Assembly (NCBI GenBank): GCA_947172705.1
Contig: CAMWCA010000001.1
Coordinates: 1 to 64,000, forward strand
DNA: 64,000 nt
From: an uncultured Lachnospiraceae bacterium
Lineage (GTDB): Bacteria > Bacillota > Clostridia > Lachnospirales > Lachnospiraceae
Direction of reading: 5' to 3'
Below are positions 38,142 through 64,000 of this stretch, piece by piece. The notes beneath the pieces are model-generated. The model saw nothing but the letters and a program-made list of their open reading frames with translations. It did no database searches and was not told the DNA's origin. Position 1 is the stretch's first letter. The number at the start of each line of letters is the position of its first letter. The translations under genes were made by a program, and so were the position numbers.

Positions 38142-41100
38142 ATGAAAAAAAGAAAGTATCTGCAGAAAACAGTTTATTTTGTGATACTTCTAGTTGTGAT
38201 TATGATTTTGTTCCAGTGGTATACGACCCAAAACAGAAGACGTATGGAGGAACGTAACAAGAGCTATGCGTCTGATTCGGCGCGGCAGATGGCGGATCAG
38301 ATAGATGATGAGTTAAACAATGGACTGGATTTGGTTACCACTTATTCCTATTTTCTGGGGGAAAGCCTGACCGAGCCTGAGGTAACACCGCAAATGCTGA
38401 AGGAGATAATAGACAATTCTCTGTTTGACGCTTTGGTGTTTACAGATGCAGAGGGAATCAATCACACGTTTGACGGACGAACCTCTGATGGGTCAGAATG
38501 TGATTATTACATTCATGGCATGCAGGGAGAAAAGGGAATATCCGTGGTATTTGATTCGGCTTTTTATGATGAAACGATGCTGTGCTTTTATGCGCCTGTC
38601 CGATATCAGGGAGAGATCATAGGCGTTTTACGGGGCGCATATCTGGCGGAAGAATATCTGAAGGATATGCTGGTTACTACATACTTTGGAGAGAAGGCAT
38701 CCGTGCATTTGTGTATGCCGGATGGGAGAATACTTGCCTGCTCCGATGCCAAGGGGCATCAGGGTATTCTGGTTGATATGCTGTTAGAGATGGGAATGAT
38801 TGATGCAGGTACGGCGGAACAGACCAACGCTGTGTTTAGGAACGGAGGAGAAGGCGCCTTTGTCTGCAGTGCCGGCAGTAAGACAGATAATATCTGTGTC
38901 AGGTATCTTGCCCAAAATGAATTTGTTCTGGTGCAGACCTTTCCGAAGAATGTTACAGAGAGCATGGTCAAAGCCGAAAATCTTGTAGGAATTCGGCTGG
39001 AGGCAATGCTGATAGGAGTTTTTATTTGCTACATGCTGGTGATGCTGCTTCATGCAGGACGGGAAAGAAAGCGGCTTCAGCAGGAAAACCGTGAGATGGG
39101 ATATATTATCAGCGGCATTAACACATTGTTTTCCCGTTTTGTCATGGCTGATTTTGAAACAGATACCTATCTTTACCTTGCCGGAACAAGACCCGAGGAC
39201 AGCAGGTTTTCAGTCAGCGGCAGATATGAGGATTTGGTACGGCATCTCAGCAGCTTTCTGGAAGATGCTGAGGAACGTCAGGTGTTTGCAGGACAGCTTG
39301 CTAAAGATGCCATTATAAAAGAAATGGAAGAACACGATGACCTTCGTTTTGAATGCCATATACTCCGGGGCGGAAAGCCGGAATGGGAGCATATGAATAT
39401 TATCTGTCTGGAGCGAAAGGAAGGCAGAGTATCCAAAGTTTTGTTTATCCGGCAGAACATTACAGAGGTAAAGGAAAAAGAATTGCGCATCCAGGCGGAA
39501 ATGTCCCTTGCAAATCGAAAGGAAAGGCAGTATCGAATTGCAATTACCTCCAATGCTTTCTGTACCTTTGAATTTAACTTGACGAAGGATATGATAGAGG
39601 ATGATATTTTACGGGATGTAGAGGATGGAACCATTTCGCTGCTTGAGAAAGTTGGGCTGGAGGTTCCCTGTAAAGCGTCCCAATGCTTTGAACTGTGGAA
39701 GCCGTTTGTATTAGAGGAATCTGTGGAGGAGTATGAACGGATCGTAAATACCAACTACCTGAGAGAGCGGTTTGAACAGGGAGAAACAGAGGTCAATATT
39801 GATTATTGGGGCTGGGTTTCTGCCAACAGACAAATGTGCGTAAGGCAGTCGTTTATTATGACCCAGGATTATGATACGGGCGATATCATGGTTATGGTAG
39901 TATCAAAGGAGATCACGGAACAGGTGCAGAAGCAAAGAGAGCAGACCCAGGCGCTTCAGGATGCCCTTATGCAGGCACAGCATGCCAATGCGGCAAAGAC
40001 CACCTTCCTTTCCAATATGTCCCATGATATCCGCACGCCCATGAATGCGATCATAGGCTTTGCAACCATTGCAGTGAGCCATATTGACAACAAAGAACAG
40101 GTCAGGGACTGCCTCCAGAAGGTTCTTTCATCCAGCAACCATCTGCTGAGTCTGATCAATGATATTCTTGACATGAGCAGAATTGAAAGCGGGAAGGTGC
40201 AGATCAAAGAGCAGGAATGCAATATTTCTGAGCTGATGCACAATTTGGTTAATATTATCCAGCCTCAGGTGAAGGCAAAACAGCTTGAATTGTTCATTGA
40301 TACGTTTGAAGTAGCGAATGAAGACGTGATAGCCGATCCCCTTAAGTTGAATCAGATTTTTATTAATCTGCTCAGCAACGCTGTAAAATACACGCCGGCG
40401 AAGGGCAGTATTTCCTTCAGAATTATTCAGAAAACCACCTTCCGGCATGGCTATGGCGATTATACTTTCGTTGTAAAGGACAGCGGTATGGGTATGACGC
40501 CGGAATTTTTAAAACATGTTTTTGAACCCTTTGAACGGGAATCCAGTACCACCCGCAGCGGAATTGAAGGAACAGGGCTGGGAATGGCAATCACGAAAAA
40601 CATTGTGGAGATGATGAACGGCAAGATTTCCGTGGAGAGCGAAGTGGGAAAAGGAAGCGTCTTTACGGTAGAACTGACCTTGAAGCTCCAGGACAATGAA
40701 AAGAATGCGGAACAGATCAAGGAACTGAACGGCTTGCGGGCGTTGGTGGTGGATGATGATTTCAATGTCTGCGATAGTGTAAGTAAAATGCTGAAAGAAA
40801 TTGGCATGCGTGTGGAATGGACCACTTCCAGCAGGGAAGCAGTATACCGCGCCAAGGGCGCCTGTGAGGAGGGAGATTCCTATCATACTTATATCATTGA
40901 CTGGCAGATGCCGGAAATGAGCGGTGTGGAAACGGCAAGGAAAATCCGCAGCGCGGTAGGAAAGGAAGCGCCGATCATCATTCTCACCGCATACGACTGG
41001 ACAGATATTGAGGAGGAGGCAAAGGAAGCGGGGGTTACTGCTTTCTGTGCAAAACCGCTTTTCATGTCAGATTTGAAGTCGGCATTACTGGCGGCAAATA

Positions 41101-41537
41101 ACCTGATTGACAAAGAGGAAAAGGACAGTTCATGGGTATTGGGAGATTTTAAAGGGAAACGGGTTCTCTTGGTGGAAGACATTGAACTGAACAGGGAGAT
41201 TGCAGAGGTCATATTGGAGGAGGCAGGATTTGCCGTAGAGTCTGCACCGGACGGAACGGATGCGGTGGAAATGGTGAGCAGATCGGAAGAAAATTATTAT
41301 GATGTAATTTTAATGGATATACAGATGCCCATTATGAACGGCTATGAGGCAACCAGAGCCATCCGTAATCTTGCAAGAAAAGATGTCAGAAATTTACCCA
41401 TTCTTGCCATGACAGCCAATGCGTTGGAGGAAGATAAAGAGGCGGCAATCAAAAACGGTATGAATGCGCATATTGCCAAACCGTTGGATATAAAAGTGCT
41501 TATGGATGTGCTAAGCCAATATCTTGACCAGAATTAA
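38142..41537 (+). CDS. Hybrid sensor histidine kinase with two receiver domains
   Basis: A 1131-residue membrane kinase. TM1 lies near residues 8-27, an extracellular sensor of about 260 residues follows, and TM2 is 'MLIGVFICYMLVMLLH'. A PAS-like region leads to the HisKA box 'FLSNMSHDIRTPMNAIIGFA', then HATPase boxes 'IFINLLSNAVKYTP' and 'GTGLGMAITKNIVEMM'. Receiver 1 has 'YIIDWQMPEMSG' and receiver 2 'VILMDIQMPIMNGYEA', each with its Asp. No HPt or DNA-binding output is attached or adjacent. GGGGGAGAGG precedes the ATG. Confidence 0.95.
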   Translation: MKKRKYLQKTVYFVILLVVIMILFQWYTTQNRRRMEERNKSYASDSARQMADQIDDELNNGLDLVTTYSYFLGESLTEPEVTPQMLKEIIDNSLFDALVFTDAEGINHTFDGRTSDGSECDYYIHGMQGEKGISVVFDSAFYDETMLCFYAPVRYQGEIIGVLRGAYLAEEYLKDMLVTTYFGEKASVHLCMPDGRILACSDAKGHQGILVDMLLEMGMIDAGTAEQTNAVFRNGGEGAFVCSAGSKTDNICVRYLAQNEFVLVQTFPKNVTESMVKAENLVGIRLEAMLIGVFICYMLVMLLHAGRERKRLQQENREMGYIISGINTLFSRFVMADFETDTYLYLAGTRPEDSRFSVSGRYEDLVRHLSSFLEDAEERQVFAGQLAKDAIIKEMEEHDDLRFECHILRGGKPEWEHMNIICLERKEGRVSKVLFIRQNITEVKEKELRIQAEMSLANRKERQYRIAITSNAFCTFEFNLTKDMIEDDILRDVEDGTISLLEKVGLEVPCKASQCFELWKPFVLEESVEEYERIVNTNYLRERFEQGETEVNIDYWGWVSANRQMCVRQSFIMTQDYDTGDIMVMVVSKEITEQVQKQREQTQALQDALMQAQHANAAKTTFLSNMSHDIRTPMNAIIGFATIAVSHIDNKEQVRDCLQKVLSSSNHLLSLINDILDMSRIESGKVQIKEQECNISELMHNLVNIIQPQVKAKQLELFIDTFEVANEDVIADPLKLNQIFINLLSNAVKYTPAKGSISFRIIQKTTFRHGYGDYTFVVKDSGMGMTPEFLKHVFEPFERESSTTRSGIEGTGLGMAITKNIVEMMNGKISVESEVGKGSVFTVELTLKLQDNEKNAEQIKELNGLRALVVDDDFNVCDSVSKMLKEIGMRVEWTTSSREAVYRAKGACEEGDSYHTYIIDWQMPEMSGVETARKIRSAVGKEAPIIILTAYDWTDIEEEAKEAGVTAFCAKPLFMSDLKSALLAANNLIDKEEKDSSWVLGDFKGKRVLLVEDIELNREIAEVILEEAGFAVESAPDGTDAVEMVSRSEENYYDVILMDIQMPIMNGYEATRAIRNLARKDVRNLPILAMTANALEEDKEAAIKNGMNAHIAKPLDIKVLMDVLSQYLDQN

Positions 41538-44732: not shown

Positions 44733-45374
44733 ATGATCGTAGAGGAACTGGAACAGATAAAGCCGTCAGAGACAGGCTGTTTCCCAGGTTTGAATGCTCT
44801 TTGGAGCACGTTCCCCAGAAGTACAAGGATTCATATGGAGAATGTGGGGAAATATGCGGATGCCATGTATCAATATATGGCGGAAACCAATATGGAAAAT
44901 GTAAATGAGGTGCTGGGGAAGGACTTCAGAAGTGTAAGCAGACAGCTTTTTATGCTTCATGACATTGGAAGGCATTACATTCCCTTTGCGCTGTTAAATA
45001 AGGTTGGGAAGTTGGAACCTGAAGAACTGCAATTGATTAAGGATCATACAGTCAATGCCAGGCGTGCGATCAGAAGTATTTATCAACAACCCTTTTCCGA
45101 TGAGCTCATGAGGATATGGGAGGATATTTCCGTATATCATCATGAGCATTTTGACGGTACCGGTTATCCGGAAGGGCTGGCAGGCACAGATATTCCGCTG
45201 GCAGCACGGATCTGCGCAATTGCGGATGCTTATGAGGGAATTGTAAGCTGGAAGCCTTATAAGAAGAAACAGACCTCCAGCCAGGAAGCGGCGGACATCA
45301 TTGAAGGGGAGGCTGGGAAGCAGTTTCAGCCGGAATTGGTTGAGGTTTTCCGAAAATGCATTATAAGGTTCTAG
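44733..45374 (+). CDS. HD-GYP domain protein
   Basis: A 213-residue protein that is almost only the HD-GYP domain. Ligands appear in 'STRIHMENVGKYADAM', 'LFMLHDIGRHYIPFALLNKV', 'LIKDHTVNARRAI' and 'VYHHEHFDGTGYPEGLAGTD'; the last contains the GYP motif. Such domains hydrolyse cyclic di-GMP, a signal that commonly controls matrix production. There is no sensor or receiver attached. It leads the operon of exported fibre-like proteins, 38 bases before the next gene. Confidence 0.9.
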   Translation: MIVEELEQIKPSETGCFPGLNALWSTFPRSTRIHMENVGKYADAMYQYMAETNMENVNEVLGKDFRSVSRQLFMLHDIGRHYIPFALLNKVGKLEPEELQLIKDHTVNARRAIRSIYQQPFSDELMRIWEDISVYHHEHFDGTGYPEGLAGTDIPLAARICAIADAYEGIVSWKPYKKKQTSSQEAADIIEGEAGKQFQPELVEVFRKCIIRF

Positions 45375-45412
45375 GAAGGAGAGACCGTTAAACGGTTAGT
45401 AAGTGGTTGATT

Positions 45413-46414
45413 ATGGACAGTCGAAATCGTTTCCGGAAATCTGCATTGAATCGCAGGAAATCCTCCCAAAAAAGCTTTGAAGGGGACTGGGAAGAAAATT
45501 TGGAGGATATGCCGGATAAAGGAGAGAAAGAGGATAAGGATCAAAAAATAAAACGTACGTTGCTCAGCCGGTTTGATCTCCTTAACCGCTTTAAGCATTG
45601 GTACTTGGGAGGAATCAGCTTCTTCCGAAGTCTTTTTCGCGTACATGCGGCAAAACAGACGATTCTTTTGATTCTGGGCGCATTGTCTGTCTGCTTTATT
45701 ATGGCGGCGTTTTATACCAACGCAGGCGAATTTGTGGTAAAGGTAGACAGGAAAATGGCGCGGGATGGCTTTTTCCTGTCGGAGATCCCCAACTTTGACG
45801 AACGATTGATCACCCTTCATGCAGTAGCGCTGGAGGATGCTACCAACATCAGCATTTATGATATAGAGGAGGATGTGATGGATGTGGACGGCGTTCATCA
45901 TACCAGCGACTGCTTTGCGTATACCTTTTATGCCAAAAATCTGACGGGGAAAACGGTGGATTACCGTTATACGCTTTTTATCAGGCATCAGACAAGAGGT
46001 ATAGAGGAGGCGGCATGGATCATGCTGTTCCATAATGGGAAACAGGAGATCTTTGCAAAAATGAATGAAAACGGTTATCCGGAAACCCAGTATTCGGATT
46101 ATGAATTTCCTTTCAGGGAATATGCAAGATATCCTGAAAAACAGCAGACTACCATCAGTCAGAGAAATCCCGGGCATATTACCCAGGAGGTGATCGACAG
46201 ACAGGGCTTTGACAGGCTGGATGGCATCTATCAGTTGAATACGGTGCCCTTTGCATCAGACAGAACCATATGTACGGGGCTTCGGGAAGAGTTTGAACAT
46301 GACGGAATGGACAAGTTCACAGTAGTGATCTGGCTGGAAGGGGAGGACCCTGAATGCATCGATAAGATCATCGGCGGCGAACTGGAATGCGCAATGAGCT
46401 TTACCTATAAATAA
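45413..46414 (+). CDS. Membrane-anchored beta protein related to the TasA-like group
   Basis: A long charged cytoplasmic N-terminus (about 80 residues) precedes one membrane segment, 'TILLILGALSVCFIMAAFYT'. An extracellular domain ends with 'VVIWLEGEDPECIDKIIGGE'. The same 'IW.EG.D..C' ending occurs in the next protein, so the two appear homologous. ATG 45413 is used instead of the TTG two codons upstream. A scaffold or base role in fibre assembly is inference. Confidence 0.65.
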   Translation: MDSRNRFRKSALNRRKSSQKSFEGDWEENLEDMPDKGEKEDKDQKIKRTLLSRFDLLNRFKHWYLGGISFFRSLFRVHAAKQTILLILGALSVCFIMAAFYTNAGEFVVKVDRKMARDGFFLSEIPNFDERLITLHAVALEDATNISIYDIEEDVMDVDGVHHTSDCFAYTFYAKNLTGKTVDYRYTLFIRHQTRGIEEAAWIMLFHNGKQEIFAKMNENGYPETQYSDYEFPFREYARYPEKQQTTISQRNPGHITQEVIDRQGFDRLDGIYQLNTVPFASDRTICTGLREEFEHDGMDKFTVVIWLEGEDPECIDKIIGGELECAMSFTYK

Positions 46415-46433
46415 TGAGAGGGACCAGTTTATT

Positions 46434-47378
46434 ATGAAAAAAAGAAAAGAAGACGAGCTGATTCATAATGAAGAAATGGAAAATAAAAAAGAACACCGAA
46501 AGGCAGGATGGCTGAAATCCAAGCTGATGGTATGCCTTTTGTATGTGGCGGTGCTTTCTACAGCAACCTACGCCTGGTTTACCCTGAACAATAAGCCCAA
46601 GGTTTTTAACCTTGCGCTGACCGCGGGAGCCTCTGCGGATCTTTTGATCGCTGACGACCTGGGGGGAGGTCCCGGGGAGTATGGGGAAGAGTTGAATCTA
46701 AAGGAGGCGCGGCAGGACCCGGTGGCAATGGAAGAGGTGGAGTTAAATCCGGTTACTACCCTGGATGCCGAGACCTTTTTCGAGCCGGTCTATACAGGAA
46801 CCACGGTAACGGATGTGAAAGAGGTTACCGATCTGACCGAGTTAAATCAGAGCTACGTCTACGAAAAGACTTTTTACTTGAAAGCGGGAAGCCTGAAGAC
46901 CAAAAGCGGCAGGAGAGTCAATTCCAGAGAAAAATATTATGATATCATGCTTTTGGGTCCTGAGCAGGAAGAGGAATTCACAGGCTGTGTCATCGAACAG
47001 GCGCCGGGCGCTTCCACAGAAGGCGGCGCAACGGCGGCAAACTCTATCCGAATTGCTTTTATTGTGGAAGGCGAGGAGGAAGTATCCATTTATGAGCCTA
47101 ACAGCGAACAGCACAATGGCGGCGACAAGGCAACCAATGGGGTAAATTATGGGACCTATGAGACCATGAAACAGCCTTCGCCCGGTGCAGAGTTTGAAAA
47201 CGGCGAGGGCGGCAACTCTAAAACCATGTTTACCATTAAAGAAGAAGAGGATGTACTGGTTACCATGCGGATCTGGATTGAAGGAACAGACGACGACTGT
47301 ACCAACTCCATTCAAATGGATGAAATTATAGGAAATATTCAATTTATTTCAAAAGATGCAGAGGATGCGGGAAGGTAG
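46434..47378 (+). CDS. SipW-dependent exported protein (TasA/camelysin-like) 1
   Basis: A 314-residue protein with a SipW-type signal: 'LMVCLLYVAVLSTATYAWFT', with cleavage expected after Ala-Tyr-Ala. The mature part is acidic and beta-rich, includes 'NQSYVYEKTFYLKAGSLKTK' and ends with the 'MRIWIEGTDDDCTNSIQ' motif shared with the upstream protein. A family role as fibre or surface subunit is likely. It is 13 bases upstream of the AAA+ gene. Confidence 0.78.
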   Translation: MKKRKEDELIHNEEMENKKEHRKAGWLKSKLMVCLLYVAVLSTATYAWFTLNNKPKVFNLALTAGASADLLIADDLGGGPGEYGEELNLKEARQDPVAMEEVELNPVTTLDAETFFEPVYTGTTVTDVKEVTDLTELNQSYVYEKTFYLKAGSLKTKSGRRVNSREKYYDIMLLGPEQEEEFTGCVIEQAPGASTEGGATAANSIRIAFIVEGEEEVSIYEPNSEQHNGGDKATNGVNYGTYETMKQPSPGAEFENGEGGNSKTMFTIKEEEDVLVTMRIWIEGTDDDCTNSIQMDEIIGNIQFISKDAEDAGR

Positions 47379-47390
47379 GAAGGATAAATC

Positions 47391-48998
47391 ATGAATGCGT
47401 TTTTTTACTACTTTTATAATTTTATGAGAAGCATTTTCGGACATATCTGGAATGTGCTGGTGGCGATCAAGGATGCCATCATTGGAATCTTTGATGTTCG
47501 GTATTATATGGAACTGTTCAGCACATACAGGGATGATCTTTCCGTTTTCGGATGGATCTGTGCCATCATTGTACATATTTTACTGATCATGCTTCTTGCT
47601 TTGTTTGTATTTCTGGTGTACAAGGGGCTTAAAGTGGTTTTCCGGTTTAAGGTTCCCGTAGTGGAATATGAGAAAATGAAGGATGAAGTGGTAACTTTAA
47701 AACGCGAGATCATGAAGGCGAATTATGAAAAAGACAAGATTCTTGCCATGAAGATTTCAGAGCTGGGAATGGAGGTCAATCCGGAGTTGATGAATACACC
47801 GGGAGAGCTTCTTGCCGCCGGATTGAAAGCGGATGCAGCGCCGGAAAGCGGAGAGCTTACAGCAGAAGGGACAGAGGAAGGAGCAGTTGAGGTAGTGGAG
47901 ACTACGGAACTGCGTTTTCCGAGGCTTTCCAGTGTCGACCTGATCTACAAGGCGCCCGATTATCAACCGCCGGAATACAACAACACCATCACGTTAGAAG
48001 AGGTCTGCATTAATTTCAGAAACTTTGCGGCAAGCAGGCTTGGGTTATATTATGATCTGGAGGTAATGAAGCAGGCGTTTGCCTCCTTTGGCGCCGCCAA
48101 GATGCTGATCCTTCAGGGTATTTCAGGTACCGGTAAAACTTCCCTGCCTTATGCTTTTGGTCAGTTTATCCAAAATCCCAGTGTGATCTGCTCCGTACAG
48201 CCTTCCTGGAGAGACCGTACGGAATTGTTTGGCTATTACAATGACTTTACCAAAAAGTATACGGAAACAGATTTTTTAAAGACCATATATGAAGCCCATT
48301 ATTATGAGGGCCCCAGAATTGTGATCCTGGATGAAATGAATATTGCCAGAGTGGAATATTATTTTGCGGAAATGCTTTCGATCCTGGAGCTTCCCAGGGA
48401 GGAAGAGCGGTTTGTATCGGTAGTGTCCAATACGGCGGCGAATGATCCTGATCTGATGAAAGAAGGAAAGATCTGGATTCCTGAAAATGTCTGGTATGTG
48501 GGAACCATCAACAACGATGATTCTACCTTTGCAGTGGCGGATAAGGTTTATGACCGCGCGATCCCCATCGACTTGGACGACCGTGCAGAATATTTTGAGG
48601 CGCCGGACACAGAGCCTATGCGTCTCAGCTATAAGCATATGGCAAAGCTTTATGACGAAGCAAAAGAAAAATATCCGGTATCAGAAGAAAACCTGATTCT
48701 TCTCGATAAGCTTGACAAATATCTGATCAGTCATTTCAGGCTTACTTTTGGTAATCGTATTATGCGGCAGATGAAGGATTTTGTCCCCTGTTATGTGGCA
48801 TGCGGCGGTACGGAGATCGATGGCATTGACTTTATGTTTGCCAAGAAGATCCTGCGTAAGTTTGAATCCCTGGGGCTTGGGTTTATCAGGGATGAACTGG
48901 ACAGTCTTGTGGCGTATTTGGACAGCGAGTTTGGAAGAGAAAATATGGGTATCAGCAAAGCATATCTGGCGCGCCTTAAGAGGATGAGCGGCAGTTAA
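47391..48998 (+). CDS. Membrane-anchored McrB-like AAA+ ATPase
   Basis: A 535-residue protein. One membrane helix ('WICAIIVHILLIMLLALFVF', about 55-78) is followed by a coiled coil (about 92-125) and an acidic linker. The ATPase domain from about residue 195 has Walker A 'LQGISGTGKTSLPYAFGQF', Walker B 'IVILDEMNIARVEYYF' and the McrB-like sensor 'VGTINNDDSTFAVADKVYDR'. McrB relatives normally act in restriction, but the anchor and the surrounding export genes argue for an envelope task. A DUF2357-like partner follows. Confidence 0.88.
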   Translation: MNAFFYYFYNFMRSIFGHIWNVLVAIKDAIIGIFDVRYYMELFSTYRDDLSVFGWICAIIVHILLIMLLALFVFLVYKGLKVVFRFKVPVVEYEKMKDEVVTLKREIMKANYEKDKILAMKISELGMEVNPELMNTPGELLAAGLKADAAPESGELTAEGTEEGAVEVVETTELRFPRLSSVDLIYKAPDYQPPEYNNTITLEEVCINFRNFAASRLGLYYDLEVMKQAFASFGAAKMLILQGISGTGKTSLPYAFGQFIQNPSVICSVQPSWRDRTELFGYYNDFTKKYTETDFLKTIYEAHYYEGPRIVILDEMNIARVEYYFAEMLSILELPREEERFVSVVSNTAANDPDLMKEGKIWIPENVWYVGTINNDDSTFAVADKVYDRAIPIDLDDRAEYFEAPDTEPMRLSYKHMAKLYDEAKEKYPVSEENLILLDKLDKYLISHFRLTFGNRIMRQMKDFVPCYVACGGTEIDGIDFMFAKKILRKFESLGLGFIRDELDSLVAYLDSEFGRENMGISKAYLARLKRMSGS

Positions 48999-49012: not shown

Positions 49013-50284
49013 ATGGGTAATACAGAAAACGCAGAAAACATGGAACAGGAAGATTTTGTTCATGAGACCTATTTGAATATGAATCGGGAAGATGTGCAGG
49101 AAGGTCTTAAGGAGGATAAGTTTTATAATTATTTTTATAATCTCCTTGAAACCGGAAGCAATTACTGCAAATTTTCCAATGCCAAGCTGGTAAAAAGCAT
49201 TGATGAGGAGTGGGTTCGTGCCGTGGAAGCAGCTATGCCTTCCCTCCACTATGTGATTACCCATCCCCGTAAATTTATTGAGGAGGAACGGGAGGTTGTC
49301 AATGTGGCGATGGCGCGTAATATCACTACGGAGTCTATCCGCCACCTTTTACAGCACAGCAATTTGATCGATGAATACAAGGAGGACGGAACGGTTATTC
49401 CCAACCGTATTCTGAACGTTTTTAAGGAGGAAAGCTTAAATATTTATGAAAACCGTTTTATCTGTACGTTGGTAGCGGAGTTACAGTATTTTGTCAATAA
49501 GCGGTTTAATATGATCTTTGAGGCAAGCAAGGATGAGGTGGGCACTTTCTTTGAATTACAGTCCCGCGTTGATAATTATACGGAAGTAGTGGAGTATAAT
49601 CTTTCCGTAAAGATCAAAGAAAAGCAGACGGATGTCAACAATGAGACGGAGAATCAGAACATTTTTGCCAGGATCATCAAGATCCATCAGCAGATCAACA
49701 TGCTTGCCGCTACGGAATTTATCGGGCTTATGCGCCGGTATCCTGCGGTGTCCCATCCCATTGTCAAGACCAACGCCATTGGCAAGAATAAGGACTATAA
49801 AGCATGTCATAAGCTGTGGAATTTTATCCACTCCTACAGCAGAGTGGGCTACAAGGTCAATATTGTCAAGCAGGAGCCCATTATTTCCAGGCAGTTTGAG
49901 CGTGATATTTATAATACGCTGATCCGGGATTATGCCATGCTGCATAATAACATGGAATTTCACAATGAAGTGGATGTAAACCGCCCGCCCATAGAGAAAA
50001 AGATGGATGTAAAGCAGATCAGGCAGCTTCTTGACGAGATTGTAAAGCATACGGAGTTAAGCGATGCAAACTTAAGAAAGCTGCTGGTAAAAGAGCTTAC
50101 GGACATTCAGTCAAGGAGAAAGGCGGAGCTTGCAGAACAGGAGCGCCTTGCCAGACAAAAAAGGCGGGAGATCCAGAAGAACCAGAGAATTGCAGAGTAC
50201 AAAGAAAATGCATCCTCAAAAACCGGCGTAATGCGTCAGAAGCGGCGTGAAAGGATAGCAGAGCGCAAAGCAAAGAAAAAATAA
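49013..50284 (+). CDS. DUF2357-like partner of the AAA+ ATPase
   Basis: A 423-residue soluble protein. 'ESLNIYENRFICTLVAELQY' resembles the ENR block of DUF2357/McrC-type proteins that pair with McrB ATPases. I see no PD-(D/E)xK nuclease motif. The C-terminal 70 residues are a very basic helix, 'RLARQKRREIQKNQRIAEYK'. It begins 15 bases after the ATPase and its TAA shares its last A with the ATG of the signal peptidase, so all are coupled. Family call moderate. Confidence 0.65.
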   Translation: MGNTENAENMEQEDFVHETYLNMNREDVQEGLKEDKFYNYFYNLLETGSNYCKFSNAKLVKSIDEEWVRAVEAAMPSLHYVITHPRKFIEEEREVVNVAMARNITTESIRHLLQHSNLIDEYKEDGTVIPNRILNVFKEESLNIYENRFICTLVAELQYFVNKRFNMIFEASKDEVGTFFELQSRVDNYTEVVEYNLSVKIKEKQTDVNNETENQNIFARIIKIHQQINMLAATEFIGLMRRYPAVSHPIVKTNAIGKNKDYKACHKLWNFIHSYSRVGYKVNIVKQEPIISRQFERDIYNTLIRDYAMLHNNMEFHNEVDVNRPPIEKKMDVKQIRQLLDEIVKHTELSDANLRKLLVKELTDIQSRRKAELAEQERLARQKRREIQKNQRIAEYKENASSKTGVMRQKRRERIAERKAKKK

Positions 50285-50829
50285 TGAAAAGAATATTGTC
50301 ACTTATTGGAAACATGATATTTATAGCAGTGGTGCTGTACCTGTGTTACTTCATTATCCAGGCAGTCCAGGACCGCTCCCCAAGTGTGTTTGGGTACAGA
50401 ATGCTGCGTGTTATGACGGACAGCATGGAGCCCGTTTTTTCCAGCGGAGATTGCATTATCGTGAAGGAGACGGAAAAGGAGGAACTGGCAGTAGGCGATA
50501 TTATTACTTTTGTTTCCGCTGATCCTTCCCTCCAGGGCAATCTGAACACGCACAGAATCGTAGACATTGCCAAAGATTATACCAACGGTGAAATGGTTTA
50601 CTATACCAAGGGAGATCATAACAGCTGGGTTGACGATTACACCACTCCTTATGAGGAGATCGTAGGTAAATATGTAAAAACGCTGCCCTTTGGAAAAAAG
50701 TTTTCAGAATTTTTAGGGAAGCTGTCCGATCGGGATTACTATTTTGCAGTGGTGATCGTACCGATTCTCATCTGTTTTATTTCCTGCATTCTTCAGTTGG
50801 TGAGGGACATACGAAAAAGAGTAAAATAA
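50284..50829 (+). CDS. sipW: SipW-type signal peptidase I
   Basis: A 181-residue peptidase of the ER (Ser-His) type. The nucleophile lies in 'VMTDSMEPVFSSGDCIIVKE' and the catalytic His in 'LNTHRIVDIAKD', replacing the Lys of standard bacterial enzymes; 'YYTKGDHNSWVDD' is the third box. Two membrane segments flank the catalytic domain. This type matures TasA-like proteins, several of which surround it. Confidence 0.94.
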   Translation: MKRILSLIGNMIFIAVVLYLCYFIIQAVQDRSPSVFGYRMLRVMTDSMEPVFSSGDCIIVKETEKEELAVGDIITFVSADPSLQGNLNTHRIVDIAKDYTNGEMVYYTKGDHNSWVDDYTTPYEEIVGKYVKTLPFGKKFSEFLGKLSDRDYYFAVVIVPILICFISCILQLVRDIRKRVK

Positions 50830-50845: not shown

Positions 50846-51622
50846 ATGAAGAAATTCAGGCAATTCTTTCAGGAAAAAATCATATTGAGCGCAGTAATGT
50901 GCGTGCTTCTTGCAGTGGTACTGACAACGGCTACCACTGCTTGGTATGCCATAAACAGTTCCACCAAAACCTATGGTTTGGATCTCAAGCTGGGGGGAAT
51001 TGGCGGAATCAAAGTGGCGACTGTGCCAGGAGGAGAGGATATTATGGCAGATCCCAATCTCCCCCAAAATGACGATGGGTATCCCATCATTTCCATCAAT
51101 CTGAGAGAATTTGAAAACATAGAAGGCGGCAGGATCGCGCCGGGCGCTTATGGTACCCTGCCTTTTTATATCACTGCATTGGGGGAGAACATCAAATTTT
51201 ATTCCATTAAAGTGCAAATGGAATACCGCCCCGCATCAGAACATGTTTCCGAGGAGCAGAGACAGAAAATACAGGAGATCATCAACGATCATATTTGTGT
51301 TTATACTTCCCAATACAGGGACGGCGATGGCATCTGGCGTTTTGAAAATCCTCTTACCTATTATGTGGATGAGACAGATGCAGTGACAGCGGCGACAGGT
51401 CCTCTTATGTATATGGAAGAGGTTTTGGCGGAGATCTACTGGGTGTGGAATTATGAGCTTACGGATATTCCCGATTATGATGAAATCGATAGATTTCATG
51501 GCATGGATACCCGCAAGGCGGTGCGTGCTTATGATGAGGAAGACACCACCCTGGGAAATTACATAGATGATATCTGGTTTAATGTATATATTGAAGGCAT
51601 GACGGAAGAGGCAGGTGATTAG
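50846..51622 (+). CDS. SipW-dependent exported protein 2
   Basis: A 258-residue protein with the signal 'AVMCVLLAVVLTTATTAWYA', the SipW type. The mature domain is beta-rich with 'RIAPGAYGTLPFYITALGEN', as in camelysin/TasA folds where Pro-Gly turns precede the first strands. No active-site motif. It lies directly after sipW. Confidence 0.8.
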   Translation: MKKFRQFFQEKIILSAVMCVLLAVVLTTATTAWYAINSSTKTYGLDLKLGGIGGIKVATVPGGEDIMADPNLPQNDDGYPIISINLREFENIEGGRIAPGAYGTLPFYITALGENIKFYSIKVQMEYRPASEHVSEEQRQKIQEIINDHICVYTSQYRDGDGIWRFENPLTYYVDETDAVTAATGPLMYMEEVLAEIYWVWNYELTDIPDYDEIDRFHGMDTRKAVRAYDEEDTTLGNYIDDIWFNVYIEGMTEEAGD

Positions 51623-51626
51623 AGCG

Positions 51627-52379
51627 ATGAGCAGGATAAAGAAAATAATTGTAATTGCCGTATGTGCGCTTCTGTGCCTGATGGCGGCAGGTGGTACCTT
51701 TGCCTGGTATCTCAGGGAAGAAGAGAAGCGCGCCGAAACAGAGGCTGCAAAAGTGATGGCGCCTTATAACCTGTATTTAATGAACGCCAATGCACAGGAT
51801 ACCCTGCAGTTTGCAGTAGGTAATCTCCATCCGGGAGAGACCAAGCAGGTGGTCATCTGTGTGTCCAATAAACGTCCTGATAATTATGAGGGAGATACCA
51901 GTGAGATGACGGAACTGGTAAAGGACTCGGAATTTGGGTATGACCTGATGCTGGTGCATACGGATAATCTGGCGGTGAATTATCAGGTTTATCCCCTTGC
52001 ACGAAACAATCAAACGCCGGGAAACGTTCTTCCGGAGGGTGCGATCATTATGGACGATGATACAAAGGATTTGTATTATTGGATGAAGATGGCGGCTCCT
52101 TTGGGAGGAAATGACCGATCAGAGGATCTGAGAAAAAGAGTTTTTGGAGAAAATGATACAGGCAGTATTGTAAATGTGGGTTCCTATTGGCTCTCCGATG
52201 ATGACAGCATGCAGCTTGCCTACCGTGTAAATGACAGCGGGGAAGGAAGCTATGAATATGATTATTATCTGGTTGAAGTGACATGGAAAAATATTTCTAA
52301 TTTTGATGTCTACAAAAAAGAAACAGACCTGGTGTACGTGGTGGTAAATGCCAAACAGCCAAGACCTGTGGATAAATAA
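51627..52379 (+). CDS. SipW-dependent exported protein 3
   Basis: A 250-residue protein with the signal 'IVIAVCALLCLMAAGGTFAW', the SipW cleavage type. 'AVGNLHPGETKQVVICVSNK' resembles the strand pair of TasA-like domains. ATG 51627 replaces the track's GTG four codons upstream. It has no recognised catalytic residues and is probably a minor fibre subunit. Confidence 0.78.
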   Translation: MSRIKKIIVIAVCALLCLMAAGGTFAWYLREEEKRAETEAAKVMAPYNLYLMNANAQDTLQFAVGNLHPGETKQVVICVSNKRPDNYEGDTSEMTELVKDSEFGYDLMLVHTDNLAVNYQVYPLARNNQTPGNVLPEGAIIMDDDTKDLYYWMKMAAPLGGNDRSEDLRKRVFGENDTGSIVNVGSYWLSDDDSMQLAYRVNDSGEGSYEYDYYLVEVTWKNISNFDVYKKETDLVYVVVNAKQPRPVDK

Positions 52380-52439
52380 GCGCGCTGCAGCAGGAATTGT
52401 GCAAGACAGAGAAAATGCAGCGGCGGATAGGAAAGACGG

Positions 52440-53525
52440 ATGCAGAAGGAAAAACCGGAAAAGAAAAAAAGAGAAAAGAAAAACAGAATTCCTCAAATCA
52501 TATTTACAGCCCTGGCGGGTTTTCTCGTTTTGGGAGTGTCTATTACCGTTTACTCAAAGTACTATAAGACTGGCTATAATAAAGGAATGGCGATTGCTTC
52601 TGGTTTTTATTTTAGCAGTAATTTTATGGCAGTGACGGAAGATCTGAAGGGTAAGACCATGGAGGAGATTGCCAGGGATCATCTGGATTCTGTTATTATT
52701 TCGGCAAACCCTACCTCTTGGAAGGGAACGGACGCCTATACTTTTGGGGTGGAAGTAAGGAATTACGATAATCATCTGCTGTATAATGACAGAGATTTGA
52801 ATGTGGAATATCAGATTGAATTTATGCTTTTGGAGGAACCTAAGGGAGCCACTTATCAGGTAGGATTTGGTACGGAGACAAAGCGTCTGACGAAAAAAGG
52901 CAATGTGGTCAGTTTTAAGGGAAAACTGCCGGGGGGAGGTTTGAAAGCGGATGTATACAGTCTGTCCGTGGGAATGACCAATGCTGGTATTTATGAACCC
53001 GCAGATGTTCTGATGGTTGCCTATCCCATAGGTCCGGATTATCTGGTCGACACGAAATGTATGGCGGGCATTGTCAGGGCTATTTTTGAAGAGAGAGAGT
53101 TTAAGATCGAAGAGGGAAGCGGATTTACAGTTATTTATACAGAGGAGTATGAGAAGGATTGGAAAGCGGCGGTGGAGCCGGAAGCGGGATTTGTTTATCA
53201 GTTGATTACCACCGGAAGCTATACCGGTTCAGAAACCACCTCGACGAAGAAGAAGATCAAGATAAAATGGAAGAAAGATATATTCAAGATCAGCATGAAC
53301 GATGAGTATTACCAGGAGGCGCTAAAACATGACGCAGCTTTTCCCACAGAGCCGAAGCAGTTTTATGAGGATGGAGAATGGCAGGTCATGGAGGTGGAAG
53401 TGATGCCCTATGCCTCGATCAAATTTGTATTTTTCCGAAACGACGGCTTTGAGCCGGGATTAAGCGGGATAACTCAAAAAGAAGATTTTGAAGCTTTGAT
53501 TACTGCAGAAGTGGTAACACAGTAG
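52440..53525 (+). CDS. Exported or anchored protein 4 of the fibre operon
   Basis: A 361-residue protein with a basic N-terminus and one membrane segment, 'PQIIFTALAGFLVLGVSITV'. The cleavage region 'YSKYYKTGYNKG' departs from the AYAW form of its neighbours, so it may stay anchored. The extracellular part shows 'YTFGVEVRNYDNHLLYNDRD', a beta-sandwich-like pattern, and no known catalytic motif. It is followed after 32 bases by the giant surface protein gene. Confidence 0.7.
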   Translation: MQKEKPEKKKREKKNRIPQIIFTALAGFLVLGVSITVYSKYYKTGYNKGMAIASGFYFSSNFMAVTEDLKGKTMEEIARDHLDSVIISANPTSWKGTDAYTFGVEVRNYDNHLLYNDRDLNVEYQIEFMLLEEPKGATYQVGFGTETKRLTKKGNVVSFKGKLPGGGLKADVYSLSVGMTNAGIYEPADVLMVAYPIGPDYLVDTKCMAGIVRAIFEEREFKIEEGSGFTVIYTEEYEKDWKAAVEPEAGFVYQLITTGSYTGSETTSTKKKIKIKWKKDIFKISMNDEYYQEALKHDAAFPTEPKQFYEDGEWQVMEVEVMPYASIKFVFFRNDGFEPGLSGITQKEDFEALITAEVVTQ

Positions 53526-53557: not shown

Positions 53558-56500
53558 ATGAGAAAGAGAATGAGAATAATTCGCGCGGTTGCAATTTTAC
53601 TGGCGATGATTCTGTTTTTGAATAATGAGCAGATGGTATATGTGCTTGCCACCGCCACAGAAAATATAGGCGGAGAAAATCAGATGCCCCAGGAAGCGCC
53701 TTCCGATGAGACTTTGACGGAAGAGGGAGACCAGGATGGAGAGAACAGCGGCGAGACAGTTCCGGATGTCAACGAGGGCGAGGGTGGAGATGAGACGCCC
53801 AAGGAAGAAGCCTGTGACCATGACTGGGTGACCAACGATGAGGGAACTGAGGCAGTGTGCAGTAAGTGCGGGGAGACGAAGACAGTAGAACCGGAGAATC
53901 CGGAAGAACCGGAGGAACCGGAGGAACCCTGCCAGCACGACTGGGTGACCAACGATGAGGGGACTGAGGCAGTGTGCAGTAAGTGCGGGGAGACGAAGAC
54001 GGTAGAACCGGAGAATCCGGAAGAACCGGAGGAACCCTGCCAGCACGACTGGGTGACCAACGATGAGGGGACTGAGGCAGTGTGCAGTAAGTGCGGGGAG
54101 ACAAAGACGGTAGAACCGGAGAATCCGGAAGAGCCGGAGGAACCCTGCCAGCACGATTGGGTGACCAACGATGAGGGAACTGAGGCAGTATGCAGTAAGT
54201 GCGGGGAGACGAAGGCGGTAGAACCGGAGAATCCGGAGGAAGAGTGTGAACATGAGTGGATCACAGATCCGGAAACTTCTTTGACTATATGCAGTAAGTG
54301 TGGAAAAGAAAAGGCGGAAGAGGAAGAGTGCGAGCATGAGTGGGTCACAGACCCGGAAACGTCTCTGACCATATGCAGTAAGTGCGGAAAAGAAAAGGCG
54401 GAAGAAGAATGCGAGCATGAGTGGGTCACAGATCCGGAAACTTCTCTGACTATATGTAGTAAGTGCGGGAAAGAAAAGGCGGAAGAGGAAGAATGTGAGC
54501 ATGAATGGATGAGGGACCCGGAAACCCTGCTGATTATCTGCAGCAAGTGTGGAAAAGAAAAAACGGCGGAGGATATCTGTGAGCATGAATGGATGAGAGA
54601 TCCCGAGACGTTACTGATCGTTTGCAGTAAATGCTATGAAGAGTCATTGGAGGAAGAGGAGGAATGTCCCGAGGGAGGCTTCCATATTTATGATTTGAAT
54701 GAAGAAGGCACAGGCTGGGTCTGTGTTCTTTGCGGCGTTTATAAAGAAACTCTGGATGTGCTGGACGTGACCCTTGAGATGTACCTGAAAGCAATGGGAG
54801 ACGTAAGTCTGTTAGGGCTGGATGACGCAGATGATCCGGCGTCTTCCAAGCTGCCCAAGACCAAGGCGGAACTGGATGGATATCTGTCTAAGGATCTTAC
54901 AATCGCCTCTCTGGGAGATCTGCTCGTGATACAGGAGTTGAGCAAGGAGACAGATTTCAAGGGCTATAACCTTATTTTTTCCAATCGCTCTTTGGGAAAA
55001 CTATCGGCAAATTACTCTGTGGATACCTGGGAATTGAGTACTGTGGCGGATTTTAAGGGGATCGGAGATGCGGCTCATCCTTTTAGCGGAACAGTATATG
55101 CAGGTATTACGGGTGTCAATTTGCAGTTGTCGGTACCCTTATTCCAGTATGCGTCTACAGACGCTTCTATTAACACCATGAATATCAAGAGCGATATTCA
55201 TGTGAACGACAGCGCCACGCCTGTAGGGATCATAGCGGGAACGCTTGTAAAAGGAGACGCACCGGCATTTACTTTTGGCAGGGGCGTCAATCTGGAAGGC
55301 ACTGTTTCCAACGCTTCCGGTGCGGCAGGTATGCTTTTTGGCAGGGTGGAAAACCAGGGCGGAACGGATCTTATGGAGATTAATCTTGACGGTTCTAAGA
55401 TTACATATACAAAGGACTCCAGCGTTTCAGGGCTTCACGCCGGGGGCGTGATCGGAGAGATCCAAGGAGAGGTTAAGCTGAATATTTCCTCACCGAAACT
55501 GGTAAGCAGGGTGAGCGTAAAATCGGTAAACAGCACATTGAGCCTGGGGAATGCCCTTTCCTGGAGCGCAAGCGCGGCAGGTATGTATGTGGGTGCCATG
55601 GAAGACGGCGAGATTGCCATATCCGGCGGCTCTGAAAGTTATATGGCACAGGTAGGACGTGAGTCAGGGAATGGAGGAGTAAACGGCGGGCTTGTCGGAT
55701 TGGTTTTGGGCGCCAAAGTCACCACAGACGGCAGTCAGATTTCAATTGCAGGCCCGGGTGTGACAGGACAGGTTGCCGGAGGCGTTTTTGGATACTATCA
55801 GCATGAAGACGGCGTTTCCATGTCTCTGGAGCATCTTTTGATCGATGTGCCTGTAGACGCATCAGGCGCGCAGTATGCCGGAGGCGTGCTGGGGCGTTAT
55901 TACAGGGATGAGGATGGAAGCCCGGCGAAGGATTACGATATCATTTCTGACGTGACGGTGCAGAAGAATGTGCAGGCAAATCAGTTTGCGGCAGGCATAG
56001 CAGGCTCTGTGCAGGGTTCTAATCTGAAAATTCAGGACGTCTCCATTACAGGCAATATTACCAATGTATCGGGAGGCGCAGAGGACAACAGGCGCGGTGT
56101 GGGCGGTGTGATCGGACGGCTGGAGGGGCAGTATGTAGAAATTGAAAGAGCCAGTGTGAAGACTACGTTCAACAAAGAAGCTTTTGTAGCAGGCGGCATA
56201 GTGGGAGAAGTGGTTAAAGGCGGAGACAGAAACGCTATTTTGAAGATCACAGATCCTGCTGTGGACAGCGCCTTTGGAGATAATAACGCGTATTACAGAG
56301 GTGGCATATTAGGATACGTAGGTTCAGGCAATTTTGTGGCGTTGGACGGCAGCGTCCAGGTGGGAATGGCTTGTACCCAGAACTATGGCAAGGTGGGACA
56401 TATTGCGGGCTCCCAGAGGGAATCTCTGATTTATTTGGAGACGGATGCCGAGTATACCAGACCCACGGGAAAGAACTGGCAGGACGATATTGGTAACTAT

Positions 56501-62500: not shown

Positions 62501-64000
62501 TATGGGTATAGTACCGGCGGTGTTTTAGGTCTTACGGCATCTCATGTGTATTTGCTTTCCAATGCAGTTGGGACAGAAACTGCCGACAGCGTTAAAATCA
62601 GGAATAATAAAATGTACGGTATGGTGGTAGGAGGTGTGATCGGAACCAGCAGAGCAAGGTGGGTGAACTATATTGGCACCCTTGTTGAAGGTAATGTTCT
62701 TCAGGGCTATAAGAACCACAAGGATTGGTCGCCTGTGGTGGGAGGATTTTTTGGGTCAGGGGCGTCCATAACGAACCATATTGATTATGCAAGGATCAGA
62801 AATAACGGGATTCTTGCGGCAAATGCGAATGCAGCGGGCAATAAGAGGATTGCGGTAGGAGGCTTTGCAGGCGTCACAGAATGGTCAAATGGGGCGAATG
62901 TTTACTGCCCTGAGCTTACAGATAACCTGATCGGTTACAGAGAGACGACAACGGGAGACAAATTTGCAGGAAATGTAACAAACTTAAAGGCAAATGAAAC
63001 CCTCCAGACGCTCTTTGGGTCAGGGGGAGAATTGGAGGTTTTCGGTTCAGACGGAAAACCCCTTAGTGGAAATCAGGTGAAACTGGTTTATGGAAATACG
63101 GACGGCGCGCTGAAAACCTGTAATATGCCTTCCGCAGATGAATTACGTGAAAACACGGCAGGCTATTATGGCGCACGCATTGGCAATCTGGTGGGAATCA
63201 ACAGCGGAAATTATCATTCTTACTATCTTGCACCGAAAATTTCCTACAGCAGTGACATTAAGACGCGACCGGTTATTGACGTGGGCGGAAGCTTCAGTGT
63301 CCGTCAGTCATCCGCCGATCTGCTCACCGCTCCTTATGCATATCGGAAGTTTGTCCATATTATTTATCATGAGCCTTTGGCAAGCGCCGATGCCGATGCT
63401 AATGTGTGGGATCGAACCGGAAACACGCTGCTGGATGGAACAACAATAAGCGGAAGTAAATGGAAAACTCTCTTTGGAGGTATCAGCTATACCGGAATTA
63501 TGGAAGAGTATCGGAACGCAAAAACCTCAACGGATCTGAAAGCGGTGCTGGATGCTTATCACTTAAATGCGAAAACCGACAGAGCTGCGGATGCATTACT
63601 GCTCGAGGAAGTGTATCAGAATCTTTATAAGGATGAGAACGGAGATTTACTTTCTACGCTGACTGTAACAGGCGATATAGATCCGGATGCTGAGATCCTT
63701 CCGCTGATTGTGTTGGATACGCAGTATGGAACGGCGGATGAACTGGTAAAAAGCGTCGTCACAGCATTGACCGGAACAGGAGGCGCTTATAATGATGCAG
63801 ATGGCGTCTACTCAACCGGGATGGCTGGGGTCACAGACATTAAGGCTGAACCTGTGGAGATCAAAAATGGTCAGATCCAAAAACGAAGCGGAACGGCAAG
63901 CTTAAAGGCGAGCAAGCAGAATAATAAGTGGACGGTGGATTATGTGGGATTTGACAATGATGGACTGGATGGAAATCCCCAGACCTTTACACTGCTTACG
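53558..64000 (+). CDS. Giant secreted repeat protein (partial, runs off the window)
   Basis: The frame is open from ATG 53558 to the window end, at least 3481 residues; the track omits it for want of a stop. A signal peptide ('IIRAVAILLAMILFLNNEQM', cleaved near 'VLATA') is followed by an acidic linker and nine CxH...CxxC modules (residues about 86-369), then a tenth degenerate one. The rest is rich in short beta segments with recurring glycine motifs such as 'AGGVLGRYY', 'GGVIGRLEG', 'GGLVGYIG' and 'GGLIGGMRG', as in GLUG-type or beta-helix adhesins. No LPXTG is visible because the C-terminus is missing. AGGTGA precedes the ATG. Confidence 0.9.
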   Translation, partial: MRKRMRIIRAVAILLAMILFLNNEQMVYVLATATENIGGENQMPQEAPSDETLTEEGDQDGENSGETVPDVNEGEGGDETPKEEACDHDWVTNDEGTEAVCSKCGETKTVEPENPEEPEEPEEPCQHDWVTNDEGTEAVCSKCGETKTVEPENPEEPEEPCQHDWVTNDEGTEAVCSKCGETKTVEPENPEEPEEPCQHDWVTNDEGTEAVCSKCGETKAVEPENPEEECEHEWITDPETSLTICSKCGKEKAEEEECEHEWVTDPETSLTICSKCGKEKAEEECEHEWVTDPETSLTICSKCGKEKAEEEECEHEWMRDPETLLIICSKCGKEKTAEDICEHEWMRDPETLLIVCSKCYEESLEEEEECPEGGFHIYDLNEEGTGWVCVLCGVYKETLDVLDVTLEMYLKAMGDVSLLGLDDADDPASSKLPKTKAELDGYLSKDLTIASLGDLLVIQELSKETDFKGYNLIFSNRSLGKLSANYSVDTWELSTVADFKGIGDAAHPFSGTVYAGITGVNLQLSVPLFQYASTDASINTMNIKSDIHVNDSATPVGIIAGTLVKGDAPAFTFGRGVNLEGTVSNASGAAGMLFGRVENQGGTDLMEINLDGSKITYTKDSSVSGLHAGGVIGEIQGEVKLNISSPKLVSRVSVKSVNSTLSLGNALSWSASAAGMYVGAMEDGEIAISGGSESYMAQVGRESGNGGVNGGLVGLVLGAKVTTDGSQISIAGPGVTGQVAGGVFGYYQHEDGVSMSLEHLLIDVPVDASGAQYAGGVLGRYYRDEDGSPAKDYDIISDVTVQKNVQANQFAAGIAGSVQGSNLKIQDVSITGNITNVSGGAEDNRRGVGGVIGRLEGQYVEIERASVKTTFNKEAFVAGGIVGEVVKGGDRNAILKITDPAVDSAFGDNNAYYRGGILGYVGSGNFVALDGSVQVGMACTQNYGKVGHIAGSQRESLIYLETDAEYTRPTGKNWQDDIGNYGGVYRNGTWGEGAPLISYADGKVMGTVGNSGGTWQIDSEADLIRLAIMLNTEGNYAAECFGGTGKGGLLTGSYQVTRSLDISKSGIYDLNRNDSIGKEAEMFKGSFRGPGSGTTIDLGEVSTNQKYLGLFPYAGRGAEISGFTLERTINYAEDYAGGLASDIRGNFTTRDVTLLLNMQSYISGSANNRTHFYGGVAGRIVQEGGEELTVENLRVGGNWQMKVANGANSGPAMGGLTAFYNQVDNGSCSRILVDGFELMESFKLTSGGYRSSGMFTWLNNTYVKKDRTRLSMQNIKIHNGAVMALDQNSDDPGSGWLGMSWNDVTPDDTVHYSIKGLQIGDGGSAAQGPAYSSRAVFGGLVDSVTGRIQLQNISIQNGTFNNVNRKDRIGLLFRLGHNALIEIDGYDIAGRKLGDMSGANNTGAVQLVNFTAGNYDEIVSYNIGIHRNNSDDYQRGGIVNIIYDGFTTGHKVYQNRLLDDKANTVTRYYYNLFGNSFAAEDSFLSEGEKLTKNAAVITNERQMMIWHLTHYMNDDIRRYLAPYYVDGQISDRSKDTVFKGCIDLKGVSYYPTWISGGAYLFNKGDDGRGAEIKFHAQEISDAAGTKMTPENNSREHYMMHGGLFISRSGNVTVKGDEDYLTLSGTVAHLSQQHSSGALFVMYVTGNKGMYRIRLKDLYLTNYKGEDSEGLLIGRVNEDSSLDLSWIETEYTTTGKKAAAALIGVVGNEQAKNISIEFKNMKLDSRRTEGIFQNASLIDSNYYLEDKTNQNWNRLRRLRYLFTERAFDPGVSADNDPYPPFDSATDTDNANYGNNEYTESYVTIGAELKDGVEFWDNENGPVDGTSYDFAFWKGYKWDYSKIETDYVPYVHTIEHVGSKEIEVNPKNRPITEGCGTYEDPYQITSAKQLLALGRYLQNKDDTKYLEGWQVNKYESGRSGAGSICNKTCHDDGSDLRTYRIDSDFPTQAQLSQAYYMIMNDIKLDGMTNATDKQIAEDFLGLGTLDMPFRGVIVGKQQDDGSYPTISLPVRRNYTGNTADANHGFIQYAKGAVVKDLHIKGGDAGGDDTRTGIVKVRSMAGGVMACILGGDNIIDNVTVELEVGKHNADTVQAGAYVGNIRQGSLILRNLKEDSAKGFRVGSFVTDNGKNGRLEAGSTDADRQNLYISGLVGKVENGCVIYDDAGASYSGKVLPHDAANISGIYTNDEGYPVCKHYDIIVKSHLDSDGKIDLTSAESGGVTHFTAKVSNASQLQVVSMAVNSDAFSVCYMDGGYDKTAVCRKAAYSDVGNVPAATADFTNATTEDDKTYDYPYLYKEYIAFHNAGGRAATFVSAGGDQVSRLNGVISHSDPAQRVDLNAVMNYQLSNTTYDMSVYDRGFRGIGATYRIFSEHTSEGIPYEQVGAETFYSDFRANFLGNGAVINLGIDRSYDRSIHTAALFNDLLDRRNTYEYTLSDFTVTGAVSSVVKDSEGNITSGGNEINTTRTAGVVGLMRRPWKIKNVKTENILIEGRGNTGGIVAWIEADPDRSDKTYDFNGCIVGEGTKADSYGGSVGGVIGVICRYTPTGTPLENVKVNLTNCAVKGSAADPDKHVILTVKDRKADKAPGGGDDSWRRRNTAQAAAGRSGGLVGYIGSRFEAHANDHNQIMPVQLTIENGVAEYAQLVGAYSAGGLLGEYDAHQDAENPSSATTSAGVTVTDSRVSLCQIESYRWNLKWGSLVRDDWRNYGAGGLIGGMRGRELVISASQVENTNITASSGSGDETLAATRNGNPGIYAGGAVGCIKARAATITDVTVEGGLDASARADLELGGQQYRIRSWGASAGGLVGMATAVSPNMAVPSALNLSGIKVKGMRIDVDDRKNETVFETTGGAEGNVGGVVGRNQMQLSIKPKTGETAQGAGATVENCMILCSINHAGGVLGAQVKHYNNNNNAACPIRNTSIWNVEVKNSIIGTNNTATFLVDNRNDNWRGIGGIYGALTASQDAGGYNRHYLENAEVSGCWIYGYSTGGVLGLTASHVYLLSNAVGTETADSVKIRNNKMYGMVVGGVIGTSRARWVNYIGTLVEGNVLQGYKNHKDWSPVVGGFFGSGASITNHIDYARIRNNGILAANANAAGNKRIAVGGFAGVTEWSNGANVYCPELTDNLIGYRETTTGDKFAGNVTNLKANETLQTLFGSGGELEVFGSDGKPLSGNQVKLVYGNTDGALKTCNMPSADELRENTAGYYGARIGNLVGINSGNYHSYYLAPKISYSSDIKTRPVIDVGGSFSVRQSSADLLTAPYAYRKFVHIIYHEPLASADADANVWDRTGNTLLDGTTISGSKWKTLFGGISYTGIMEEYRNAKTSTDLKAVLDAYHLNAKTDRAADALLLEEVYQNLYKDENGDLLSTLTVTGDIDPDAEILPLIVLDTQYGTADELVKSVVTALTGTGGAYNDADGVYSTGMAGVTDIKAEPVEIKNGQIQKRSGTASLKASKQNNKWTVDYVGFDNDGLDGNPQTFTLLT
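53813..54664 (+). repeat. Nine tandem CxH...CxxC repeat units in the giant protein
   Basis: Four A units (117, 108, 108 and 99 bases) encode 'CQHDWVTNDEGTEAVCSKCG' plus a Pro-Glu spacer. Five B units (81-87 bases) encode 'CEHEWVTDPETSLTICSKCG' plus a Glu/Lys spacer. All keep Cys-X-His and Cys-X2-Cys, a likely metal-binding set. The A units are nearly identical at DNA level, with whole-unit and spacer-length differences, pointing to recent duplication. A tenth, diverged unit with 'CVLCG' follows to about 54740. Confidence 0.95.

Follow-up and report, generated by a model that had tools for sequence, protein, structure and literature searches.

A candidate stalk of putative zinc-binding modules on a giant exported protein encoded in a CoCoPALM-like operon of a Lachnospiraceae bacterium

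Bacillus SipW–TasA operons, which are matrix operons, combine a SipW-type signal peptidase with small exported proteins that carry TATTAWY-like signal regions. TFIIB-type zinc ribbons (PF08271), which are intracellular, and DUF5817 (PF19134) are built around a CxxCG knuckle and a hairpin. A 2024 census gave the name CoCoPALM to McrBC relatives whose NTPase is of a transmembrane/coiled-coil type and which are linked to a signal peptidase, and deferred them to a later publication (eLife 2024, PMC11090510). The traits listed for the class are FtsB-like homology and a coiled coil in the N-terminal part of the NTPase, an NxD motif in its McrB-like domain and an McrC homologue with DUF2357; the passages that describe it make no mention of giant exported proteins or zinc-ribbon-like stalks (PMC11090510). 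Our literature search found no later paper on CoCoPALM and nothing on exported zinc-ribbon arrays or DUF5817.

In the window, the 64,000-nt stretch of the source genome that we analysed (G000; other G numbers denote the related genomes compared), we identified an operon with features of both operon types. It comprises ten genes on the plus strand, separated by short gaps, of which the last encodes a giant protein. The order starts with an HD-domain protein (44733–45374; Pfam HD_5 at 2.7e-25, with synteny), followed by two single-pass, probably exported proteins of 335 and 314 aa (45407–47378), an McrB-like AAA NTPase (47391–48998), a DUF2357 (McrC N-terminal-like) protein with a Lys/Glu-rich tail (49013–50284; PF09823 at 1.6e-9, 37.8 bits against a cut-off of 23.3) and a SipW/archaeal-type signal peptidase I (50284–50829; TIGR02228 at 3.1e-27, 95.4 bits against a cut-off of 51.85). 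Three more single-pass, probably exported proteins (258, 254 and 361 aa; 50846–53525) occupy the interval between the peptidase and the giant gene. The peptidase and the small exported proteins with TATTAWY-like signal regions are held in common with Bacillus SipW–TasA operons; the NTPase, the DUF2357 protein and the 4,154-aa giant protein go beyond them, and the peptidase scores 86 bits with the Bacillus SipW model, below its cut-off of 190. Upstream of the operon, at 38142–41537, the sequence predicts a large hybrid sensor histidine kinase with receiver-like domains.

The operon fits the CoCoPALM class on most of the features for which we compared sequences, sharing a putatively McrB-like NTPase with a transmembrane helix, an McrC-like DUF2357 partner and a linked signal peptidase (PMC11090510). 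The NTPase has one predicted transmembrane helix at aa 58–76 (mean hydropathy 3.23), followed by a stretch that by eye is rich in Lys and Glu. Its domain carries Walker A and B motifs and an NNDD motif, in which GTINNDDST is compatible with both NxD and NxxD. The best matches of this domain were AAA_5, at 20.1 bits against a cut-off of 22, and an McrB model at 1e-5, far under its cut-off; these scores and the DUF2357 neighbour hint at a likeness to McrB. No nuclease domain was found in the DUF2357 protein. The NTPase occurs in 21 of 299 Lachnospiraceae genomes (E up to 1e-60) and is the most conserved member of the operon, the giant protein being the least. The full gene order is kept in seven genera (the source genus and those of G351, G093, G245, G162, G051 and G168); for another three (G184, G046 and G333) the stretches fetched showed parts of this order. 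The linkage of the signal peptidase is conserved. In each of two genomes, G110 (contig C9) and G226 (contig C6), a distance of about 3 kb separates two relatives of the NTPase.

The giant open reading frame starts at 53558 and runs past the end of the window at 64000 to position 66022, as read from the same contig, and encodes 4,154 aa. It opens with a Sec-type signal peptide, MRKRMRIIRAVAILLAMILFLNNEQMVYVLA (53558–53650), with a hydrophobic stretch at aa 5–23 and a predicted cleavage point, in agreement with the export proposed by the initial annotation. An array of small modules follows in the same reading frame and precedes a predicted beta-rich region with GG repeats, the first part of which is at 55050–56344 (pLDDT mostly 80–95). 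A fold search with the beta-rich region gave no significant match, and its weak matches were mainly to beta-helices of enzymes and tailspikes.

The array consists of ten modules of 19–23 residues, four of class A (pattern C[DQ]HDWVTNDEGTEAVCSKCGETK), five of class B (pattern CEHEW..DPET..CSKC) and one divergent terminal module, with acidic Pro/Glu linkers between them. The class A units are unit 1 (53813–53881, then spacer TVEPENPEEPEEPEEP), unit 2 (53930–53998, then spacer TVEPENPEEPEEP), unit 3 (54038–54106, 1 nt different from unit 2) and unit 4 (54146–54214, then the short spacer AVEPENPEEE). Class B comprises units 5 (54245–54313), 6 (54329–54397), 7 (54410–54478), 8 (54494–54562) and 9 (54578–54646). 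The initial annotation had recognised nine CxH...CxxC modules in two classes at 53813–54664; that count stands for the pattern C.H.W....C..C, which occurs 9 times, whereas shuffling the whole protein 2000 times gave none and 2000 shuffles of the array alone gave at most one. A tenth module just outside that extent had been missed: the terminal C-x5-H...CxxC module CPEGGFHIYDLNEEGTGWVCVLC at 54665–54733, which is common to all seven module-bearing genomes. Cysteines make up 30 of the 310 residues of the array versus 26 of the 3,844 in the rest of the protein, and Tandem Repeats Finder scored the array at 696 (period 108) and 447 (period 84). Since the longest exact repeat is only 80 bp, an assembly error in the module count is unlikely. 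Three antisense ORFs (329, 288 and 111 aa) cross the array, and we discounted them because the composition of the repeats probably gives rise to them; the two longer ones span the array at 53597–54586 of the window on the minus strand.

Near-identity of the units, as first described, holds for the class A cores (91–99% DNA identity) and weakens along the array, to 88–93% for units 5–7 and 65–78% for the further diverged units 8 and 9. The class A spacers do vary by whole PEE steps of 9 bp. Every difference among units 2, 3 and 4 is silent and unit 1 adds a single changed residue; pairs among units 5–7 have 5–7 synonymous and 0–1 nonsynonymous differences (dN 0–0.018, dS 0.5–1.0). Units copied again and again, with the module then kept under purifying selection, would show this pattern. 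Judged by these substitutions, the module sequence, beyond the ligands alone, is under strong purifying selection. We weighed the reading that the array is a near-neutral, low-complexity linker growing by slippage or unequal exchange, its Cys and His residues being a relic of one copied ancestral module. The PEE steps would suit such growth, as would the unrelated repeats at the same site in other genera; we nevertheless disfavour it as very improbable, because like units accumulate silent differences but seldom replacement changes, and no ligand is lost in any unit compared.

We compared the array across relatives. The conserved part just after it is present in 6 of the 38 genomes of the genus, source genome included, and the gene upstream in 8 of 38. 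A profile search with the unit gave credible matches (E <1e-6) only in the giant protein family, whose matching members come from six species of the genus and from the more distant G351. Matches with a name were from Lachnospiraceae and include Lachnospiraceae bacterium 10-1 and strain 1XD21-87. A plasmid search found no relative. Including the terminal module, we counted 10 modules in G000, 10 in G005 (five A, four B and the terminal one), 6 in G032, 5 in G003, 2 in G004, 3 in G351 and at least 6 in G006, where the contig breaks off inside the array. In nine further genomes the orthologue of the giant protein has no array, and a plain linker takes its position; in other genera the site is filled by genus-specific low-complexity repeats (TGNTDN, TEPQTET, QPPEGGNGSE and GEGSGEDTGN, seen in the N-termini of L041, L042, L039 and L020).

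We built a tree of the units, which are short sequences, so that support is modest for several branches. Internal units of one genome fall together in it: units 1–3 of G003, units 5–7 of G000, and units 2–3 and 6–7 of G005. By contrast with these internal units, unit 9 pairs by position between G000 and G005, and so by best match does unit 8, which differs from its orthologue, unit 8 of G005, by 12 silent and 0 replacement changes. Among class A units dS is 0.08–0.41, versus 0.83 and 1.11 in the flanking sequence of G000 and G005. The clustering by species and the low dS of the A units relative to the flanks point to internal units having turned over since the species separated, and these sequence comparisons support a history of gain, loss and homogenisation of internal modules between species, with the last modules fixed in place. 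The variation in unit number expected by the initial annotation is thus borne out between species. Constant number together with silent divergence had been named as the outcome that would speak against it; silent divergence is seen in units 5–7, the number is not constant, and the combination as a whole does not hold.

Zinc binding and disulfide formation had both been proposed for the cysteines. The ligand set C/H1, H3, W5, C16 and C19 is invariant in the aligned units, and both ligand pairs, C/H-x-H and CxxC, are kept in every unit, one G032 unit having CxxH spacing. The sole swap is of the first Cys to His in G004 and G351 (HMHIW... and HAHIW...), a form that may stem from one common evolutionary event. 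Such a swap would keep a zinc site and break a disulfide, which favours metal; with three cysteines and one histidine per unit, the odd number of cysteines also suits a Cys3His site better than disulfide pairing. AlphaFold2 predicted one hairpin per unit for units 8, 9 and the terminal module, at moderate confidence (mean pLDDT 76.9). A Foldseek search of the PDB gave no significant match, many of the weak ones being zinc ribbons, and a PDB sequence search was weak, with TFIIS-like zinc ribbons at E of about 0.05. TFIIB-type ribbons and DUF5817 have in common with the array the CxxCG knuckle and its predicted hairpin, and the whole array scores above their cut-offs (46 bits against 31 for DUF5817 and 37.2 against 29 for Zn_Ribbon_TF). 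These scores are sums in which every contributing match is partial, and unit 8, unit 9 and the terminal module taken together stay below the Pfam zinc-ribbon cut-offs.

The cysteines could instead pair as disulfides, or make up a CxxC redox site, once the protein is outside the cell, and the fibre would then be stiffened or cross-linked by covalent bonds. In favour of this reading, CxxC doubles as a redox motif and the protein is exported. Against it, one of the three cysteines in each unit would lack a partner, His3 does not vary, His stands in for Cys1 in two genomes, and the hosts belong to Lachnospiraceae, a family of gut anaerobes; we consider it unlikely. Of the two chemistries first proposed, putative metal binding is plausible and the better fit, given the ligand pattern and the predicted hairpin.

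We suggest, at somewhat better than even odds, that the array is a stalk of zinc-ribbon-like beads on the giant exported protein. Each module would bind one Zn2+ through Cys3His, or Cys2His2 in the HxH form, and would fold as a minimal zinc-ribbon-like hairpin. The array would then resemble small, rigid beads strung on charged linkers, keeping the body of the protein off its anchor, and recombination between repeats would adjust the number of beads. The distance from the initial Met to the first coil motif is 452–505 aa in G000, G005, G032 and G003 despite their 10, 10, 6 and 5 modules, a length that is only loosely constant in a small sample of four array-bearing species; in G032 and G003 longer plain linkers offset the fewer modules. 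Orthologues without modules have 152–321 aa there, mostly linker of the disordered type. As far as length goes, modules and linker thus seem able to stand in for each other, which makes a stalk the most economical role, and it is also the likeliest one because in other genera the array site of the orthologue is taken up by plain, disordered linker. By eye, no cell-wall anchor was found at the C-terminus of the giant protein, which is SLTDFFVFSVAKLKTDLDY in G000, with a similar end in G003, and lacks an LPXTG-like signal; a stalk that holds the body away therefore presupposes an anchor that we did not see.

The same modules could serve as a multivalent, low-affinity binder of a host glycan, mucin, a metal store or an operon protein, with repeat number setting avidity. 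Selection on the whole module sequence rather than on the ligands alone speaks for this reading, and choline-binding repeats, which are tandem hairpin arrays, were among the weak fold matches. The module-free orthologues in nine genomes argue against it, as do the most distant units, which conserve almost nothing beyond W5 and the ligands, and we think a binder rather doubtful.

Returning to the stalk, the giant protein would be exported and assembled with its operon partners, namely the SipW-type signal peptidase, the small exported proteins, the NTPase and the DUF2357 partner. A bolder version, to which we give little credence, is a zinc-bead stalk outside the cell that repeat recombination and the supply of zinc would tune in length and stiffness. 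The giant surface protein bearing it would be exported by an McrBC-derived, membrane-anchored NTPase system that has gone from restriction to surface assembly. Most likely the array is an adjustable stalk made of modules whose general kind is common in the family, and it belongs to a little-studied gene cluster. It offers a clean case, with strict ligands, clear repeat turnover and module-free orthologues for comparison. The operon is more surprising than the array, which alone is of modest interest and gains from its setting: through this operon, an McrBC-linked class that has been named but is still unexplored gains a likely and concrete client, the giant exported protein, and the role of the class thereby becomes testable.

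The initial annotation had also called a string of such modules unusual, a view that our survey of the family does not support. Using a query of our own design, we found a generic exported H-x-W...ATCTEDG...CxxCG module in 140 of 299 sampled Lachnospiraceae genomes, about half (E up to 1e-5). Examples (L088, L095, L096, L097 and L099) carry a roughly 34-aa H-x-W...TC...CxxCG repeat; N-termini were seen for part of them, some with a signal peptide, and one example has a sortase signal. No Pfam or NCBIfam zinc-ribbon cut-off was reached in the three proteins scanned, and we found no curated family for these modules and no function in the literature searched. Like the array, they stand in tandem on low-complexity linkers and have His-x-Trp/Tyr followed by CxxCG, some starting with CxH or HxH. 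They differ in being about 34 aa long with an extra TC loop, whereas the array unit is 24 aa with its first Cys in CxH, and, unlike the array, they sometimes lose cysteines. A profile comparison of the two gave 91.7% probability over 17 columns only, those of the CxxCG half. Because generic modules are so frequent in Lachnospiraceae, we regard the array as a compact variant of a common theme. Such modules recur in the source genome itself, where a second protein (L100:115-1263, G000 contig C16) starts with an N-terminal membrane helix and continues with CxxCG modules (HVHDY...C...CSECG) spaced by Pro/Thr linkers.
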